Shown here: in pieces, positions 35,180 to 42,639 of the stretch
Numbering within the stretch: the first letter of the stretch is position 1
Layout: each line of letters opens with the position of its first letter
Assembly: GCA_016871355.1 (NCBI GenBank)
Contig: VFZC01000006.1
Location: forward strand, 1-64,000
Direction of reading: 5' to 3'
DNA length: 64,000 nucleotides
Origin: Actinomycetota bacterium
GTDB taxonomy: Bacteria > Actinomycetota > Acidimicrobiia > Acidimicrobiales > Ilumatobacteraceae
Translations under genes and position numbers: made by a program
The notes under the pieces: model-generated
What the model saw: the letters and a program-made list of their open reading frames with translations, nothing else
Databases searched by the model: none
What the model was told of the DNA's origin: nothing

Positions 35180-35194
35180 ACTAGATTGTCGGCC

Positions 35195-35770
35195 GTGCGT
35201 CGACCCCTCGTGAGCGCCATCGTGATCGCGTCTGCATCGTTCGGTGTGGTCGCTTGTGGCAGCGATCCCAACGCTTCATCCACCACGTTGCGCCCGCTCA
35301 CGTCCACCAACTACGCCACCACGCCACCGTCAGTGGTCGTCACGGTCGATCCGGCCAACACGTTGCCGCCGCCGCTCACCTACACCGTGGTCGCGGGAGA
35401 CTCGATGTACGCCATCGCGTCGCGATTCGGTGTGAAGGCCGAAGACATCGCCAGTTACAACGCCTGGGCCGACGGCATCTTGCATCCGCTGTCACCCGGA
35501 CAAGTGATCCTCATCCCGCCCGGCGCCGCCAACGTCACCACGACCCTGCCCGGTATGCCCATTCCGGTCGACACCACCGCACCCGGTCCGCAACCCGGTC
35601 AGGGCAAGTACGTGGTGGAAGCCGGCGACTCGCTGTCGCGCATCGCCGACAAGTGGGGTGTGGAGGTGTCGGCGTTGCTCGCCGCCAACGGATGGGTCGA
35701 CTCGAGTGTCGTGATCCTGCCCGGTGACGAGATCAAAATCCCGGCTCGCACCAAGAACCCTCAGCCGTAG
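35195..35770 (+). CDS. LysM-domain lipoprotein (two LysM repeats)
   Basis: Lipobox FGVVACGS; YTVVAGDSMYAIASRFGVKAEDI and YVVEAGDSLSRIADKWGVEVSAL. Confidence 0.9.
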   Translation: MRRPLVSAIVIASASFGVVACGSDPNASSTTLRPLTSTNYATTPPSVVVTVDPANTLPPPLTYTVVAGDSMYAIASRFGVKAEDIASYNAWADGILHPLSPGQVILIPPGAANVTTTLPGMPIPVDTTAPGPQPGQGKYVVEAGDSLSRIADKWGVEVSALLAANGWVDSSVVILPGDEIKIPARTKNPQP

Positions 35771-35785: not shown

Positions 35786-36805
35786 TCAGCCCAGATCGGG
35801 CCAGCGTCGCTTCTGTCGACGTCGTTGGCCGGCGGTGCCGAGGGCGCGTCGTTCCGACAGTGCCCACTGACGTCGCCAGCCGGTGTAATCGGGACCAGTG
35901 AGCGTGGGGTTCTCGTTGCGCGCCGCGCGTTGGCGCGCGCTCCAGTAGTCGGTGAGCGATTCGTCACCCAGTGCGGTGACGGCCTTTTCGATTCGGGCTG
36001 CGAACCGACGTGTGTTCTCGCCGTCGAGACCAGACATCGGATGACCGAACACCACTTTGGTGGTGCCGGGTCGTGGACGCTTCATTCCCTTGCCGAAGAT
36101 CGAGCCGGTTCCGTCGATGAACACCGGAACCACGGCGGCTCCGGTGCGACTCGACAGGTAGGCGGCTCCACCCTTGAACTCTTGACCCCACCCGTCGGGC
36201 GAGCGTCCGCCCTCTGGATAGATCACGAGACTCCAGCCGTCTTCCACGAGAGCTTTGATCAGGTCGGACGACTTGCGCCCGGTCACTTCGCGGTCGATCG
36301 GAATCGCGTTCAGCGACAGTGCGGCCATGGCGGCTTTCCAACGCTTGTCGAAGAAGTAGTCGGCGGCCGCGGCGACGACGATCTTCGAACGCCAGGGTTC
36401 GGGAACGACCGACGCCATGATCGCGGTGTCGAGATGCGAATGGTGGTTGGGGGTGAAGATCAACGGGGGAGCGTCGTCGAGTCGAGCCAGATCGGAGAGT
36501 CGATCGGTTCCGAACACACTCGGGCTGGCGACACCGCGCACCAGGAGACGAACCGGACCGTTGACGATGAGGCGGCGGGCGGCCCGCGCCGGTGCCCGTC
36601 GGGCCCACTGGGTGTCGTAGTCGGCGCCGAGGCTCGGCTCGTCGGCCGGGACCTCCACTCCTCGCGGTGTGGTGGGAGCGGTGTACGGAAAGCCGCGCTT
36701 CTTCACACGCTTCACGATCGGCGTCGCGAGTCGCTCGACCACGTCACCGGCTCGCGCCGCCTTGGCCAGATTGCTCGGCCGCCACGGAGCGTCATCGCGT
36801 GCCAT
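35786..36805 (-). CDS. PlsC-like lysophospholipid acyltransferase
   Basis: FTPNHHSHLDTAI, VIYPEGGRSPDGWG. Confidence 0.9.
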   Translation of the reverse strand: MARDDAPWRPSNLAKAARAGDVVERLATPIVKRVKKRGFPYTAPTTPRGVEVPADEPSLGADYDTQWARRAPARAARRLIVNGPVRLLVRGVASPSVFGTDRLSDLARLDDAPPLIFTPNHHSHLDTAIMASVVPEPWRSKIVVAAAADYFFDKRWKAAMAALSLNAIPIDREVTGRKSSDLIKALVEDGWSLVIYPEGGRSPDGWGQEFKGGAAYLSSRTGAAVVPVFIDGTGSIFGKGMKRPRPGTTKVVFGHPMSGLDGENTRRFAARIEKAVTALGDESLTDYWSARQRAARNENPTLTGPDYTGWRRQWALSERRALGTAGQRRRQKRRWPDLG

Positions 36806-38394
36806 CAGAGGCTCACGTCCGCGACCATGAGCGGTGGCGTGTGCAAGTGGGTGATGGTCGGCGTGCGACCGACCACGTCGCTGGCGATCTCGAGCGCATC
36901 GTCCATCGTGCTGGCCGGTACGAAGCCGAGACGACGCACGGTCTTCTGATCGCCGCCCACCACGATGACCCGACTGCAGTGCTGCATGCCGTGGGTGCCC
37001 CAGTACCACATGTAGAACGGATGCACGCCGTGATACGCGTAGCCCGTGCGATAGAGGTGGCGGTACCACTCGTCCTCGGCGTACTGCTTCTCCCACTTCT
37101 TCGACATGACGTGCGGATCGGTGGTGTCGGCCAGCACCTGTTCGAAGAAGTCGATGTAACTCGGATGGTGCACCGGGTTGAACTCGGGTCGGCAGGGGTG
37201 GGTCATGATGATCACGCCGCCCTCACGCACCAGCGGCATGCCGCGGTACATGTTGAAGTAGTAACCCATCGCCATCACTTGCACCAGGATCGGGTTGAGG
37301 ATCGAGTGCACGTTGTACGGGCTGATGTACGGAATGCCCATGGTGAGAATGTCGGTCTGACCCTTCACCTCCACGAGCTGCTGCTTGTACACGTGCTCGG
37401 TGGTGATGCGATGCACGGCCTCCACTTCACCCGCCTGAACACTGGTCATCTGGTGCGGGGCCTCGATCGAGTGGAAGATGTCGCGGGCCAGACGATGCGG
37501 GGTGCGGTTGAGCGCCTTGGTAGTGGCGAGGAAGGTCATGCGGTCGCGCGCGGTCCATTCCCATTCACGCTTCGACAGGAAGTCGAAGGGCTTGGGGAAC
37601 GTGTCGGTGTTGAGCGTGGTCTCCACTTGGAACACCTTGACGCCGCTGTCGAGCAGGACCTTGCCCATGCGCCAGTTGCTCTTGTGCAACTCGCTGCGGT
37701 GTTGGTCCATGAAACTGCGCGAGTGGGTCATGGTGTCGGGGTTGTGGTGATGGCGCAGTGAGCGATACGACGCGAGGCCGGTGGCCGTGCTCTTCCAGCC
37801 GCCGTCCATGGCGACCAGGTTGATGTTCACGTACACCAGCAGGTCGCTCTCGGCGGCCCGTTTGTTGATCTCCACCTCTTCGCCTTGCGGAGTGGTGCCC
37901 AGGAACTCCAACTTCGCGGGATCTTCGGCGTCGTGTTGGTACAGGTAGCCGCGCGGCGCGAACGCGTCGTACACGCGGTCGCCCACGGCGTGACGCAACT
38001 CGGCTTCGGTCATACGACGGTGCAGCGCGAGAGCCGCGATGATGTGCACGTCGTCCACACCGGCTTCGGCGGCCAGGTCGAGCACGGCTTCGATCACGCG
38101 TTGGCGGATGTCGGGCCGCTGCATTTTGGGCAGCGGCAGACTCACGTCGTCGAAAGCGATCGTCAGACGCATGCCGGGGAAGAGCTGTGACGGCAGTGGA
38201 TCCTGGTCGATCGGGTTGAGCAACGCGTGGCGAATCGCGCCGTCGACGTCGTCGATCGCCGGCAGCGGCTCGGGCGGGTAGATCACACGGCTACGACCGG
38301 CCGGCAACTTCTCGAGTGAGAAGTTCTCACCGCGCCAGAACAGGATCGGCGGAGTGGAGCGGTCGACGTCGAGAACGAATCCGGGACGGGGCAT
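36805..38394 (-). CDS. LarA-like (lactate racemase domain, DUF2088) protein, divergent
   Basis: RLTIAFDDVSLPLPKMQRPDIRQRVIEAVLDLAAEAGVDDVHIIAALALHRRMTEAELRHAVGDRVYDAF; GGWKS. Confidence 0.8.
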   Translation of the reverse strand: MPRPGFVLDVDRSTPPILFWRGENFSLEKLPAGRSRVIYPPEPLPAIDDVDGAIRHALLNPIDQDPLPSQLFPGMRLTIAFDDVSLPLPKMQRPDIRQRVIEAVLDLAAEAGVDDVHIIAALALHRRMTEAELRHAVGDRVYDAFAPRGYLYQHDAEDPAKLEFLGTTPQGEEVEINKRAAESDLLVYVNINLVAMDGGWKSTATGLASYRSLRHHHNPDTMTHSRSFMDQHRSELHKSNWRMGKVLLDSGVKVFQVETTLNTDTFPKPFDFLSKREWEWTARDRMTFLATTKALNRTPHRLARDIFHSIEAPHQMTSVQAGEVEAVHRITTEHVYKQQLVEVKGQTDILTMGIPYISPYNVHSILNPILVQVMAMGYYFNMYRGMPLVREGGVIIMTHPCRPEFNPVHHPSYIDFFEQVLADTTDPHVMSKKWEKQYAEDEWYRHLYRTGYAYHGVHPFYMWYWGTHGMQHCSRVIVVGGDQKTVRRLGFVPASTMDDALEIASDVVGRTPTITHLHTPPLMVADVSL

Positions 38395-39605
38395 CAGCGT
38401 GTCTCCTGGTGTGGGGGACGGAGGTCGAAGGCGATCTTCACGGCACCGCGCCGGCCAGCGGCGGCGGCGTGCGCGATGGCCTGCTCGTACTCGTCGAGGC
38501 GATAGGTCGCCGACAGCAGGCGGTCCAACTGCGCGGTCCGGGCGAGCTCGATCGCGAGGTCGAATGTGTGGCGGCGTGAACCATCAGCGAGAGTTTCGGT
38601 TCCATAGGTATAGGCGCCCACGAGTTGGGTCTCGCGGTGCCACAAACCAGTGAGGTCGACGGTGACCTCGGCCGGCATGCCGAGTAACACGACTCGTCCG
38701 CGCGGTCGCGTGAACTTGATGCTCGCGGCGATCGACGACGAATCGCCAACGGCATCGATGGTGGCGTGCGACCCACCCGACAAGTGATCGCCGACGACGT
38801 GGCAACCGACTTCGCGACGAACCGCGCGCGACAATTCGTCGCTCGGCACGGCCACGTCGGCACCGAACGCACGAGCCAAGGCCTGTTGATGCGGATAACG
38901 AGCACCGACCACGATGCGTACTCCGGGCGCGAACGCCCGCAGTCCGGCCACCGCGCACAGCCCCATCGTTCCGGCGCCGAGCACGGCGACCACGGGTGTC
39001 TCCCCACGATCGAGGGCGGCCTGCACGGCCGGCCAGGTGGCGAGAGCGGCGTGAATTCCGCCGGCCGCCGGTTCGACCAACACGGCGCACTCGTCGCTCA
39101 TGTCGTCGGGGATGGCGTGCAGTTGACTCTCGTGGGCGATCAGTTCGGTGGACCAACCTCCGCCCGTCGACGAACAGAATCCGGTTTGGATACCGGGTTC
39201 GAGGCAGCCCCCCACCAGATGTGCGTAGTTGTCGCCGTCGCCGGGAGCCGCTCCGTCGAACGGAAGGGCCAGTCCGCGCGCGGCATGACCGAGCACTGGT
39301 TCGAGCACCACGCGTCGGCCGTCGTCGCAATCGGCCACGACTTCGTGGCCGGGTACGAACGGGAACGAGACCCAATCGTCGAAGTACGTGGACGCGTGCC
39401 CTTCGACGAGCGACAAATCGGAACCGCAGATTCCGGTGAGTCGTGGTGTGATGCGATGCCACCCCTCGCCGGTCGGCAACGCCGGCGCGCTCTCGTTCAC
39501 GAGGTCGAGCGGTCCGTACTTGGCGGCACCCGATGCACTGATCGGACTCACCAGACGAGCCACCGCGAACTTCGCGGGCTTGCGCGAGATCTTGAGTGCG
39601 CGCAT
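38394..39605 (-). CDS. zinc-type alcohol dehydrogenase superfamily protein
   Basis: ICGSDLSLVEGH, FPFVPGHEVVADC, VAVLGAGTMGLCAVAGLRAFAPG. Confidence 0.88.
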   Translation of the reverse strand: MRALKISRKPAKFAVARLVSPISASGAAKYGPLDLVNESAPALPTGEGWHRITPRLTGICGSDLSLVEGHASTYFDDWVSFPFVPGHEVVADCDDGRRVVLEPVLGHAARGLALPFDGAAPGDGDNYAHLVGGCLEPGIQTGFCSSTGGGWSTELIAHESQLHAIPDDMSDECAVLVEPAAGGIHAALATWPAVQAALDRGETPVVAVLGAGTMGLCAVAGLRAFAPGVRIVVGARYPHQQALARAFGADVAVPSDELSRAVRREVGCHVVGDHLSGGSHATIDAVGDSSSIAASIKFTRPRGRVVLLGMPAEVTVDLTGLWHRETQLVGAYTYGTETLADGSRRHTFDLAIELARTAQLDRLLSATYRLDEYEQAIAHAAAAGRRGAVKIAFDLRPPHQETR

Positions 39606-41974
39606 CAGAAGAGCCTCCGCGAACGCACGGCGAAACGCTTCTGTTCGGATTCGGACACCAGTGGACCGATGGGCAGCAACCGGCGCGGCGCGCCTTCGGC
39701 CTTCTCCCAGTCCTCGACGAGCCAACCACGTTTGCGTGCGATGGCCGCGAGACGAGTCTCGGGATTGACGGCCACGGGGAAGCCCACTGCTTCGAGGAGC
39801 GGGAGATCACTGGTGGAGTCGGCGTACGCCACGCACTCTTCGAGGCGGAAACCTTCGGCCCGGCAGTAGTCGGCCAGGATCTGCGCGCGGGTCTCACCGG
39901 TCGGCGGCACCACCGCCAACTCGCCGGAGTACGTGCCGTCGGGGCGCTTGGTCATGTCGGCCGCGACGATCTCGTCGAACAGCGGTCGCAAACCTTCGAC
40001 GGCGAAACTCAGAGCGCCGGTGATGAGCACCGTGCGGTGTCCGAGAGCGCGGTGCTCGCGAACACGCCGCAACCCGGCCGGGAACGACTTGGTCATGATC
40101 AACTGCGACAGCAGTTCGGCGGCATCGGCTTCGATCTGCTCGACCGGCGCGTCTTCGTAGCGGCGGTAGAAGTAGCGCAGGAAGTCGGCGCGGTCCTTGC
40201 GATCCATCGCGAGAAGACCGGGGGCCTCACGCAAGGTGCGCGCAACGTAACGAATGCGTTCGGGGGTGTTGAGACGGCGAGTCGCGAGCCACGAGTAGGC
40301 CTCGACCACGTTGGAGGCGATCAGAGTGTTCTCGAGATCGAATGCGGCCACCTGACGCGACGGGTCGAGCACTTGTTTGCGCAGGCGATCACGACGGTCG
40401 ACCGTGGTCTTGCCGGGAGCGGTCTTCACGCGGGCGTGTTGAACCACCGAGGGCAGGTGAATCGTCGAGATGTAGAGCGGCCAGTCGACCGAATTCGGAT
40501 CGAGGTTGAACGTGGCGCGGTCGGCCGCATCGAAGCCCTCGTGGATACGCATCAAGTTGTCGACCTGGTAGATCGCTTCGCATTCGGTGTAGAGGCCGTA
40601 GAGCTCGACGTATTCGAGCGCGCGTTCGATGTTGCCGCGGCGCTCTTCCAAACGGGCCGACCACGACGCCTGCACGCCGCGCAAGGGGAGTGACTGCAAG
40701 GTGCGTTCGGCGCGGGTGACCACGGTCTTGGCCCGCGACAACTGCTTCTGCACCCGACCGCGTCCGGGGAAGTTCCAGTCGGGGACCACGATCGGTTGGC
40801 CGTGCGAGTCGTAGATCGGATGCTCGGTGAACCAGTCGCGCACGTTGTCGACCAAGGTGCGGTACTTCAACGGATTGGTGGAGCCCGATGCGACCTGAGT
40901 GATCGGCGGTGCCGATTCGGGGCCGAGAGCGGCCACCGCGATGATCGCGGCAACCACGATGTCGACCGGGATGACGTCGATGGTTCCTTCGGGAACGCCA
41001 GGGAATTCCTTCAGAAGACCGCGCGCGTACGAGATGATTACGGGCTCGGCCATACGGAAGCCGCGAATCCAGCCCGGGAACGGTTCGGCCAACGCCGACT
41101 CGATGATGGAAGGCCGCACGATGCTCACCGGCACCGACCCCTTGGTTTCGTGCAACGCTTGTTCGCCCAACGCCTTGGTGAACGCGTAGGCATCGGGCCA
41201 ACCCACACTCGCCGCGCGCGAACGTCCGGCGGCGACGAGTTGATCCTTCACCCAGCGCTCACGACACTGTTCGGTCTTCTCGGCGAGAGCCGGTGCGCCG
41301 GCGGCACCGAGTTCACGACGCGCATCGGCCCGGAATCCGGCCAATCGCTCGGGTGTGCGGCTGGCCGCTTCGGTGTCACCGCGCAGACGACGTGCCGCTG
41401 CCACTTCGGCGCGCCACGACAATCCGATGTCGAAGGGTCCGGCACTCACGAGTTCTTCGGGCGCGCTGCCGCGCCGATTGCCGGCCACGTAACAGGTGGA
41501 CACGGCCACGAGGTGGGCGAGTCGTCCCGAGGGACCCGGACCGACGTCGTTGAGCAGTTGCGCGATGCGCATGGGGCCGAGAAGGTTGATCTCGATCGCG
41601 CTGTCGAGCGGTGAATCGAACGCGACACTCGCCGCTGAGTGAATGATGATGTCGCACGACGCGAAGGCTCGACGATCGTCGGGGGAGAGCCCGAGCCCGT
41701 CGGTGCCGACGTCGCCACTCACGACGCTCACGCGCGACGCGATGCGGGCATCGAACTGGTCGCCCCATTCGGATCGCAGTCGATCGAACGCGTTGTTCCT
41801 CATGATCTCGCGGCGCACTCGCTCGGCGGCCGAGGTTCGTTTGCCGTCGCGAACGAGCAACACGAGTGAGCAATCGGGGACCGCGCGGAGCAATCGTTCG
41901 ACGAGGGCCGTACCCACGAAGCCGGTTGCACCGGTGACGCCGATGCGCCGGCCGGCCAGGGCGGAGGAGATCAC
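39605..41974 (-). CDS. SDR (fatty-acyl-CoA-reductase-like) / HAD-IB domain fusion protein
   Basis: GVTGATGFVGTALVERLLR, WPDAYAFTKALGEQ (YxxxK), C-terminal HAD domain AAFDLENTLIASN...YADSTSDLPLLEAVGFPVAVNP. Confidence 0.88.
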   Translation of the reverse strand: MISSALAGRRIGVTGATGFVGTALVERLLRAVPDCSLVLLVRDGKRTSAAERVRREIMRNNAFDRLRSEWGDQFDARIASRVSVVSGDVGTDGLGLSPDDRRAFASCDIIIHSAASVAFDSPLDSAIEINLLGPMRIAQLLNDVGPGPSGRLAHLVAVSTCYVAGNRRGSAPEELVSAGPFDIGLSWRAEVAAARRLRGDTEAASRTPERLAGFRADARRELGAAGAPALAEKTEQCRERWVKDQLVAAGRSRAASVGWPDAYAFTKALGEQALHETKGSVPVSIVRPSIIESALAEPFPGWIRGFRMAEPVIISYARGLLKEFPGVPEGTIDVIPVDIVVAAIIAVAALGPESAPPITQVASGSTNPLKYRTLVDNVRDWFTEHPIYDSHGQPIVVPDWNFPGRGRVQKQLSRAKTVVTRAERTLQSLPLRGVQASWSARLEERRGNIERALEYVELYGLYTECEAIYQVDNLMRIHEGFDAADRATFNLDPNSVDWPLYISTIHLPSVVQHARVKTAPGKTTVDRRDRLRKQVLDPSRQVAAFDLENTLIASNVVEAYSWLATRRLNTPERIRYVARTLREAPGLLAMDRKDRADFLRYFYRRYEDAPVEQIEADAAELLSQLIMTKSFPAGLRRVREHRALGHRTVLITGALSFAVEGLRPLFDEIVAADMTKRPDGTYSGELAVVPPTGETRAQILADYCRAEGFRLEECVAYADSTSDLPLLEAVGFPVAVNPETRLAAIARKRGWLVEDWEKAEGAPRRLLPIGPLVSESEQKRFAVRSRRLF

Positions 41975-41993
41975 GATACGGTTCTAGCACCGC

Positions 41994-42013
41994 TCTCTAC
42001 CAAATGGTAGAGA
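41994..42013. promoter_or_regulatory. TetR-type operator candidate TCTCTACCA-AA-TGGTAGAGA
   Basis: Perfect 9-bp arms; extra half-site TGGTAGA at 42028-42034; between divergent SDR-HAD and TetR genes. Confidence 0.75.
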
Positions 42014-42042: not shown

Positions 42043-42639
42043 GTGGCCCGTCGGACCGGAACCCGAGACCTGATCCTCGAGCGGGCTACCGACCTGTTCG
42101 GACGCTGGGGTTTCGAGGCCGTGAGCCTCGACCAGATCGCGGCCGAGGTGGGGGTGGCCAAGCAGACGGTTCTCTATTGGTTCCCGTCCAAGGACGACCT
42201 GGTTCAGCAGGTTCTGGCCCGCACGGCGGCCGACCTGGCCGTGGTGGTGGAAGCGGCCATTCGCACCGCACCCGACGACCCACTCGACCGTCTGGAGGCC
42301 GTCGTGAAGGCGGTGTTCCGCCCGGCCGTGCGTCGCCCAGCGTTGCTCGGACTCGTGCGTGAGATCAGCCGTCTTCCGGCCGATGCATCCGAACGTTTCA
42401 CCGACACTCTGCGCCCGCTCGTCGATCGGGCGGTGCGGTGGATGGAGGTGGAGATGCGCGCGGGTCGCTTGCGCCGTGGCGATCCGTCACTCGTGATCGC
42501 CTTGGCCTACGCCACCGTCACCGGAATCGCGACCGAACCCGAAGCGTTGCGCGTGGTGGGTTGGAACGCCGACATCGCGGGTCTGCGGCGATTGCGCGAC
42601 GAGTTGGTGGCGTTCTTACGCGCTGCTCTCGAGACGTGA
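42043..42639 (+). CDS. TetR-family transcriptional regulator
   Basis: TRDLILERATDLFGRWGFEAVSLDQIAAEVGVAKQTVLYWFPSKDDLVQQVL. Confidence 0.95.
   Translation: MARRTGTRDLILERATDLFGRWGFEAVSLDQIAAEVGVAKQTVLYWFPSKDDLVQQVLARTAADLAVVVEAAIRTAPDDPLDRLEAVVKAVFRPAVRRPALLGLVREISRLPADASERFTDTLRPLVDRAVRWMEVEMRAGRLRRGDPSLVIALAYATVTGIATEPEALRVVGWNADIAGLRRLRDELVAFLRAALET

Follow-up and report, generated by a model that had tools for sequence, protein, structure and literature searches.

A conserved actinobacterial operon joining a LarAH14 nickel-pincer-type protein to putative glycerolipid enzymes

A coupled four-gene operon

What would a relative of lactate racemase do in an operon with a predicted fatty acyl-CoA reductase and an acyltransferase? 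The question is raised by a locus in the first 64,000 nucleotides of contig VFZC01000006.1 (assembly GCA_016871355.1; hereafter the window, meaning this whole stretch), part of a 2.2-Mb genome in 59 contigs that is about 86% complete and has its closest relatives in the Acidimicrobiia, chiefly the Ilumatobacteraceae. Four minus-strand genes encode a fusion of a short-chain dehydrogenase/reductase (SDR) with a haloacid dehalogenase (HAD) domain (41974-39605, GTG start, 789 aa), a zinc-dependent alcohol dehydrogenase (ADH; 39605-38394, ATG start, 403 aa), a LarA-like protein (38394-36805, ATG start, 529 aa), and a PlsC-family acyltransferase (36805-35786, ATG start, 339 aa). The positions of the open reading frames and a reading of the junctions confirm the translational coupling described in an initial annotation of this DNA: at 39605, 38394, and 36805, stop and start codons share the motif TGATG with a 1-nt overlap. 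Together with a divergent TetR gene, all of these genes have dN/dS ratios of 0.03-0.05 relative to a sister genome, indicating strong purifying selection. From sequence comparison, we propose that the locus is a conserved, locally autoregulated operon for glycerolipid biosynthesis that uses a nickel-pincer nucleotide (NPN) enzyme, and that it most likely gives rise to a glycerolipid of the alkyl-ether or a related reduced-chain type. We hold this reading tentatively, as the most probable of those weighed below.

Conservation across Actinobacteria

Among 398 actinobacterial genomes, with occurrence counts based on protein-to-DNA searches, LarAH14, the group containing the LarA-like protein, was detected in 94 (87 above the cut-off and 7 as fragments) and the SDR-HAD fusion in 96. 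Both genes occur in 91 genomes and neither in 299, leaving 3 and 5 genomes with a single one of the two (Fisher p about 2e-79, a figure that ignores relatedness). In these 8 apparent exceptions, the gene meets a contig end or the contig is short or broken; in genome G066, both genes are present on separate contigs. The initial annotation would have been refuted by homologues that never co-occur beyond close relatives; instead, their co-occurrence is essentially complete throughout the phylum, and the gene order is conserved in about 20 families.

The arrangement is conserved as well. Across 47 sampled loci, the order SDR-ADH-LarA is found in 37 of the 41 that have enough upstream sequence, and a PlsC gene lies downstream of LarA in 35/46. 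The 80 named loci of the Acidimicrobiia are more uniform, with the SDR upstream in 64/64, the order SDR-ADH-LarA in 57/64, and PlsC downstream in 71/71, whereas none of 13 other LarA loci shows the operon arrangement. The predicted core genes, encoding SDR-HAD, LarAH14, and an acyltransferase, are thus kept together across distant actinobacterial families. Plasmid spread was considered and rejected, as the LarA-like protein has no match in PLSDB.

Active site and cofactor of the LarA-like protein

The LarA-like protein matches NCBIfam NF052592 (LarAH14/15/16) with 902.6 bits against a cut-off of 740, covering model positions 1-519 of 520. Its residues were mapped by alignment to solved LarA chains, and conservation was assessed in homologue sets that, for this and the other catalytic-residue checks, reach down to about 40% identity. 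K201, H217, and D83 correspond to Lys184 (cofactor link), His200 (nickel), and Asp72 (ribose) and are invariant in 20 homologues; H125, matching the catalytic His108, is also invariant. The position of His174 is taken by Asn192 (Asn in the homologues as well), with an invariant Asn190 nearby, and that of the carboxylate-binding Arg75 by Leu86 (the 20 homologues have Leu, Ile, or Cys there). Because the catalytic His174 and Arg75 are both missing, the protein is probably not a hydroxyacid racemase. The lactate-racemase reading was rejected for these changes, and the family knowledge on which the initial annotation drew is unsuited to a protein lacking two reaction-defining residues.

Groups 14 and 15 are among the LarA groups without His174 (PMC12611868). 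The closest solved structures are the single-histidine LarA proteins of Blautia wexlerae and Streptococcus plurextorum (PDB 9q2u, 9q3j, and 9q3k; E 8.8e-53 by profile), and 9q3k and 9q3j are also the top fold matches of the AlphaFold model (pLDDT 92). Like these proteins, the LarA-like protein has one catalytic histidine and retains the NPN lysine and the nickel histidine. The two differ in sequence (about 20% identity), at the position of Arg75 (Lys in the structures), and in genomic context, which is carbohydrate-related for the solved proteins and lipid-related here.

Genes for making the cofactor can accompany the operon: larE (equivalog, 290 bits against a cut-off of 150), larB, and larC adjoin it in 6 loci belonging to 3 families. 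Four of these loci (L059, L063, L069, and L091) are from family f23 and carry the genes on the same strand after PlsC, and the others are L072 (f71) and L092 (f52). Furthermore, larC is present in 83 of the 94 LarAH14 genomes, including the source genome, vs 167 of the 304 others, and all 10 genomes tested, again with the source genome among them, encode a larE above the cut-off and a larB-like AIRC match. The linkage to larB, larC, and larE and the conserved cofactor residues argue that the LarA-like protein uses the NPN cofactor. The initial annotation had called the role of this operon member unexplained; the protein falls in the known LarAH14/15/16 group, to which no reaction is assigned, and its use of the cofactor is now indicated. 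Two further observations concern the distribution of lar genes: a family-f1 genome carries larC, larB, and larE clustered away from the operon (L223, 3910-6553), and the phylum has a second LarA group, about 40% identical, whose loci lack the operon (L073-L077, L079, and L080).

The changed active site bears directly on an alternative in which the LarA-like protein epimerises a 2-hydroxy fatty acid or ester, the FAR-like (fatty-acyl-CoA-reductase-like) domain makes a 1,2-diol from 2-hydroxyacyl-CoA, and PlsC acylates the diol. The FAR-like domain is intact, and alkane-1,2-diols are present in some Thermoleophilia. In addition, 2-hydroxy acids are substrates of LarA enzymes (PMC7583248). However, His174 and Arg75, both of which serve 2-hydroxy acid racemisation, are missing, and the PlsY found in Rubrobacter-like operons (see below) points to glycerol-3-phosphate instead. 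We regard diol formation as improbable, although it ranks first among the four alternatives considered.

Predicted lipid enzymes of the operon

By its domain content, the SDR-HAD protein is a fatty-acyl-CoA-reductase-like protein fused to a C-terminal HAD-IB phosphatase domain (Pfam PF07993, NAD_binding_4, 200 bits; PF12710, HAD, 83 bits). Its best PDB match is the fatty acyl-CoA reductase 7eoz (2e-60, residues 3-515). The Sterile domain scores 26.7 bits, under the curated cut-off of 35.4, which is why we name the protein "FAR-like" and not "FAR", yet 7eoz aligns through residue 515. The GxTGFxG motif and Y263xxxK267 are invariant in 19 homologues, as are D546, T550, D719, and D723 of the HAD domain, in which the second acid of motif I is D or E. 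The acyltransferase (PF01553, 61 bits) has the motifs H121x4D126 and P197-E-G-x-R201, both unchanged in each of 17 homologues. The third partner is a zinc-dependent medium-chain ADH (PF00107/PF08240) with zinc ligands Cys60, His87, and Glu88 invariant in its homologues. Since the ADH is not at its usual place beside LarA in 8 loci (L045, L128, L130, L135, L136, L137, L140, and L157), we rejected it as a core member and define the core as SDR-HAD, LarA, and the acyltransferase; in place of the full pathway member of the initial annotation, the ADH thus appears to be accessory. The space between ADH and LarA is itself variable, as Rubrobacter-like loci encode a protoglobin and a MOSC/YiiM protein there (L057, 11304-11894; L056, 7448-8122).

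A different acyltransferase takes part in the operon of one group. Eight Rubrobacter-like loci lack the downstream PlsC and instead encode PlsY (185 bits against a cut-off of 137) immediately upstream of SDR-HAD, and this is the sole PlsY of the genome in 3 of the 4 Rubrobacter-like genomes tested. The earlier suggestion that the operon makes or incorporates a fatty alcohol or aldehyde or an unusual glycerolipid has therefore fared unevenly: the lipid link is strengthened by the gene order kept in about 20 families, the Rubrobacter-like PlsY, and the invariant FAR catalytic residues, whereas the nature of the product is still a matter of prediction.

Two other lipid-related explanations can be weighed against this gene set. 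In the first, the NPN enzyme would alter the C2 configuration of glycerol-phosphate or a phosphorylated polyol before PlsY or PlsC acylates it, giving an unusual backbone or head-group. C2 centres are inverted by NPN enzymes, the S. plurextorum LarA, a related protein, was modelled with a 316-Da phosphorylated polyol (PMC12611868), and a 2026 paper reports that PlsY and PlsC accept both stereo-forms of glycerol-phosphate (PMC13400652). Inversion normally requires two general bases, though, and only one histidine is available here; the obligatory FAR-like partner would also be left unexplained. Such a change in stereochemistry is unlikely and stands second, after diol formation. Placed third, and likewise unlikely, is the formation of a fatty alcohol, wax ester, or other reduced neutral lipid, with the LarA-like protein isomerising a small alcohol or polyol moiety. 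The presence and conservation of FAR and PlsC agree with it, as does an ADH that could interconvert alcohol and aldehyde. On the other hand, no wax-ester synthase was seen adjoining the operon in the annotated stretches, LarA stays with FAR where the ADH is lost, and LarA adjoins PlsY, a phospholipid enzyme.

Regulation of the operon

The TetR regulator (42043-42639, plus strand, 198 aa, PF00440) diverges from the operon across a putative operator palindrome, TCTCTACCA-AA-TGGTAGAGA (41994-42013). The initial annotation had called this palindrome perfect, which is true of its 9+9 bp arms, set around the 2-bp centre AA. In a scan allowing two mismatches, the core TCTACCA-NN-TGGTAGA has a single perfect match in the source genome, and the orthologous operator is likewise the sole perfect match in the sister genome. 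All 16 divergent-TetR loci examined, which span six families (f1, f3, f4, f6, f9, and f20), also have a T(C/T)TACCA-NN-TGGTA-type site, perfect or near-perfect, directly in front of SDR-HAD. The predicted operator is thus more than a chance palindrome. TetR is divergent in 16 of the 47 sampled loci and in 53 of the 80 Acidimicrobiia loci, and 7 further loci carry it downstream in the same orientation. As neither the source nor the sister genome has a second perfect operator, a wider TetR regulon was rejected and control appears to be local.

A possible -10 hexamer, TAGAAC (41981-41986, minus strand), is apparent from the sequence and ends 6 nt upstream of the SDR-HAD GTG, which suggests a leaderless transcript. 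Similar hexamers (TAGAAC, TATAAC, or TAGACC-like) are found 6-9 nt upstream of the SDR-HAD start in several relatives.

A divergent TetR with a single operator is typical of inducible local control and would also suit a catabolic or detoxification operon, in which TetR-induced proteins of lipid-like families act on a foreign substrate. A core biosynthetic role nevertheless fits better with the near-complete co-inheritance over about 20 families and the strong purifying selection. Moreover, the operon PlsY is the only genomic copy in most of the Rubrobacter-like genomes tested, and no transporter conserved across families was found among the neighbours. We consider this the least probable of the four alternatives, and very unlikely.

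Proposed function and relation to known ether-lipid routes

What genome comparison establishes, namely gene co-inheritance, a predicted NPN site that is intact, lar linkage, acyltransferase exchange, and a conserved putative operator, suggests that an organometallic enzyme probably serves the carriers in making a membrane lipid that is unusual and perhaps ether-linked. Known ether-forming enzymes fail to explain the gene set. A homologue of Ger/PlsA (marker PF09989) was absent from all 10 operon genomes searched but present in 4 control genomes, so this enzyme was rejected. Alkyl-dihydroxyacetone phosphate (alkyl-DHAP) synthase (AGPS) acting in trans was rejected as well, since AGPS-like proteins were found in 27 of 99 operon genomes and the other 72 gave none at 1e-70. 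The source genome does encode an AGPS-like protein, whose top match in the PDB is the alkyl-DHAP synthase 2uuu (1.3e-51), but its gene lies between GlpD-like and FGGY-kinase genes (L210, C14 5536-10396), unlinked to the operon.

The initial annotation knew of no characterised pathway with this combination, and this is borne out by the differences from the known elb, AGPS, and Ger clusters. The myxobacterial ether-lipid operon elbA-E shares FAR-like, HAD, and acyltransferase parts with the operon described here, but ElbD adds acyl-CoA ligase and carrier domains whereas SDR-HAD comprises FAR and HAD alone, and the elb description mentions no LarA-like gene (PMC9131029). The eukaryotic-type route (FAR, GNPAT, and AGPS) has the FAR step and a glycerolipid acyltransferase in common with the operon, which however lacks AGPS. 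A 2023 study of Rubrobacterales ether lipids by Sinninghe Damste reportedly mentions a putative ether-lipid operon that may or may not be the same as this one. Frankia LarAH14 (NF052592) belongs to the same protein family as the LarA-like protein; the operon partners and lar linkage are reported here, while the parts of Desguin 2020 describing the group assign no pathway. A literature search, the scope of which excluded Table S1 of Desguin 2020 (neighbouring COGs, clusters of orthologous groups) and the 2023 Rubrobacterales paper, found no paper joining LarA with FAR or PlsC. The LarAH14 protein group is already known, and the operon-level assignment appears new within the literature searched, those two sources aside.

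In the favoured alkyl-ether reading, the FAR-like domain would reduce acyl-CoA to a fatty alcohol or aldehyde, and PlsY and PlsC would form acyl- and diacyl-glycerol-phosphates. Speculatively, the NPN enzyme would abstract the C2 hydride from 1-acyl-glycerol-3-phosphate, and the transient C2 ketone would mimic acyl-DHAP, the substrate of AGPS; a fatty alcohol might then displace the C1 acyl group before the hydride is restored on the same face. The HAD domain would act as a phosphatase on a lipid phosphate, and the optional ADH would handle the aldehyde or alcohol. Such hidden redox with retention fits the single-histidine site better than racemisation does, as it needs one catalytic histidine and a racemase two. 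If LarAH14 enzymes form the ether bond by this hidden C2 redox, they would represent a third independent ether-lipid route in aerobic Actinobacteria, beside AGPS/ElbD and Ger/PlsA; this specific proposal is doubtful. The Rubrobacterales, probably the organisms of the f25 loci, are consistent with an ether product, as mixed ether/ester lipids are reported to be dominant there (cited in PMC11150832).

Several points weigh against an ether-forming role. A second strong FAR gene is present in 3 of the 4 Rubrobacter-like genomes and could serve ether lipids instead. That family f25 is Rubrobacter, and genome G041 R. xylanophilus DSM 9941, is our assumption. None of the LarAH14 proteins has a known activity, and ether lipids have not, as far as we are aware, been reported from relatives of Ilumatobacter or Solirubrobacter. 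Frankia LarAH14 was assayed for seven conversions and gave no activity (Desguin 2020, PMC7583248), and related single-histidine LarA proteins are tied to carbohydrate metabolism (PMC12611868). In one of the three Rubrobacter-like genomes with a second FAR gene, this gene encodes a carboxylic-acid-reductase-like protein (AMP-binding, carrier, and FAR domains; L207, 7067-11092) that is coupled to an SDR and is an alternative candidate for ether-lipid synthesis in that genome. Similarly strong FAR matches are found in G011 and G196, and none in G041.

The NPN enzymes we know of so far are solely 2-hydroxyacid racemases and epimerases. A widespread and near-complete linkage of an NPN group to glycerolipid enzymes would bring this cofactor into lipid chemistry and would hand the LarAH14 group a testable substrate class. 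The operon is also a candidate source of alkylglycerol lipids in aerobic bacteria, the makers of which are poorly known, and would offer a simple genomic marker for cultured Ilumatobacter, Solirubrobacter, and Rubrobacter relatives.

Neighbouring gene

At 35186-35770 of the window, a convergent gene encodes what appears by eye to be a lipoprotein carrying two LysM-like repeats.

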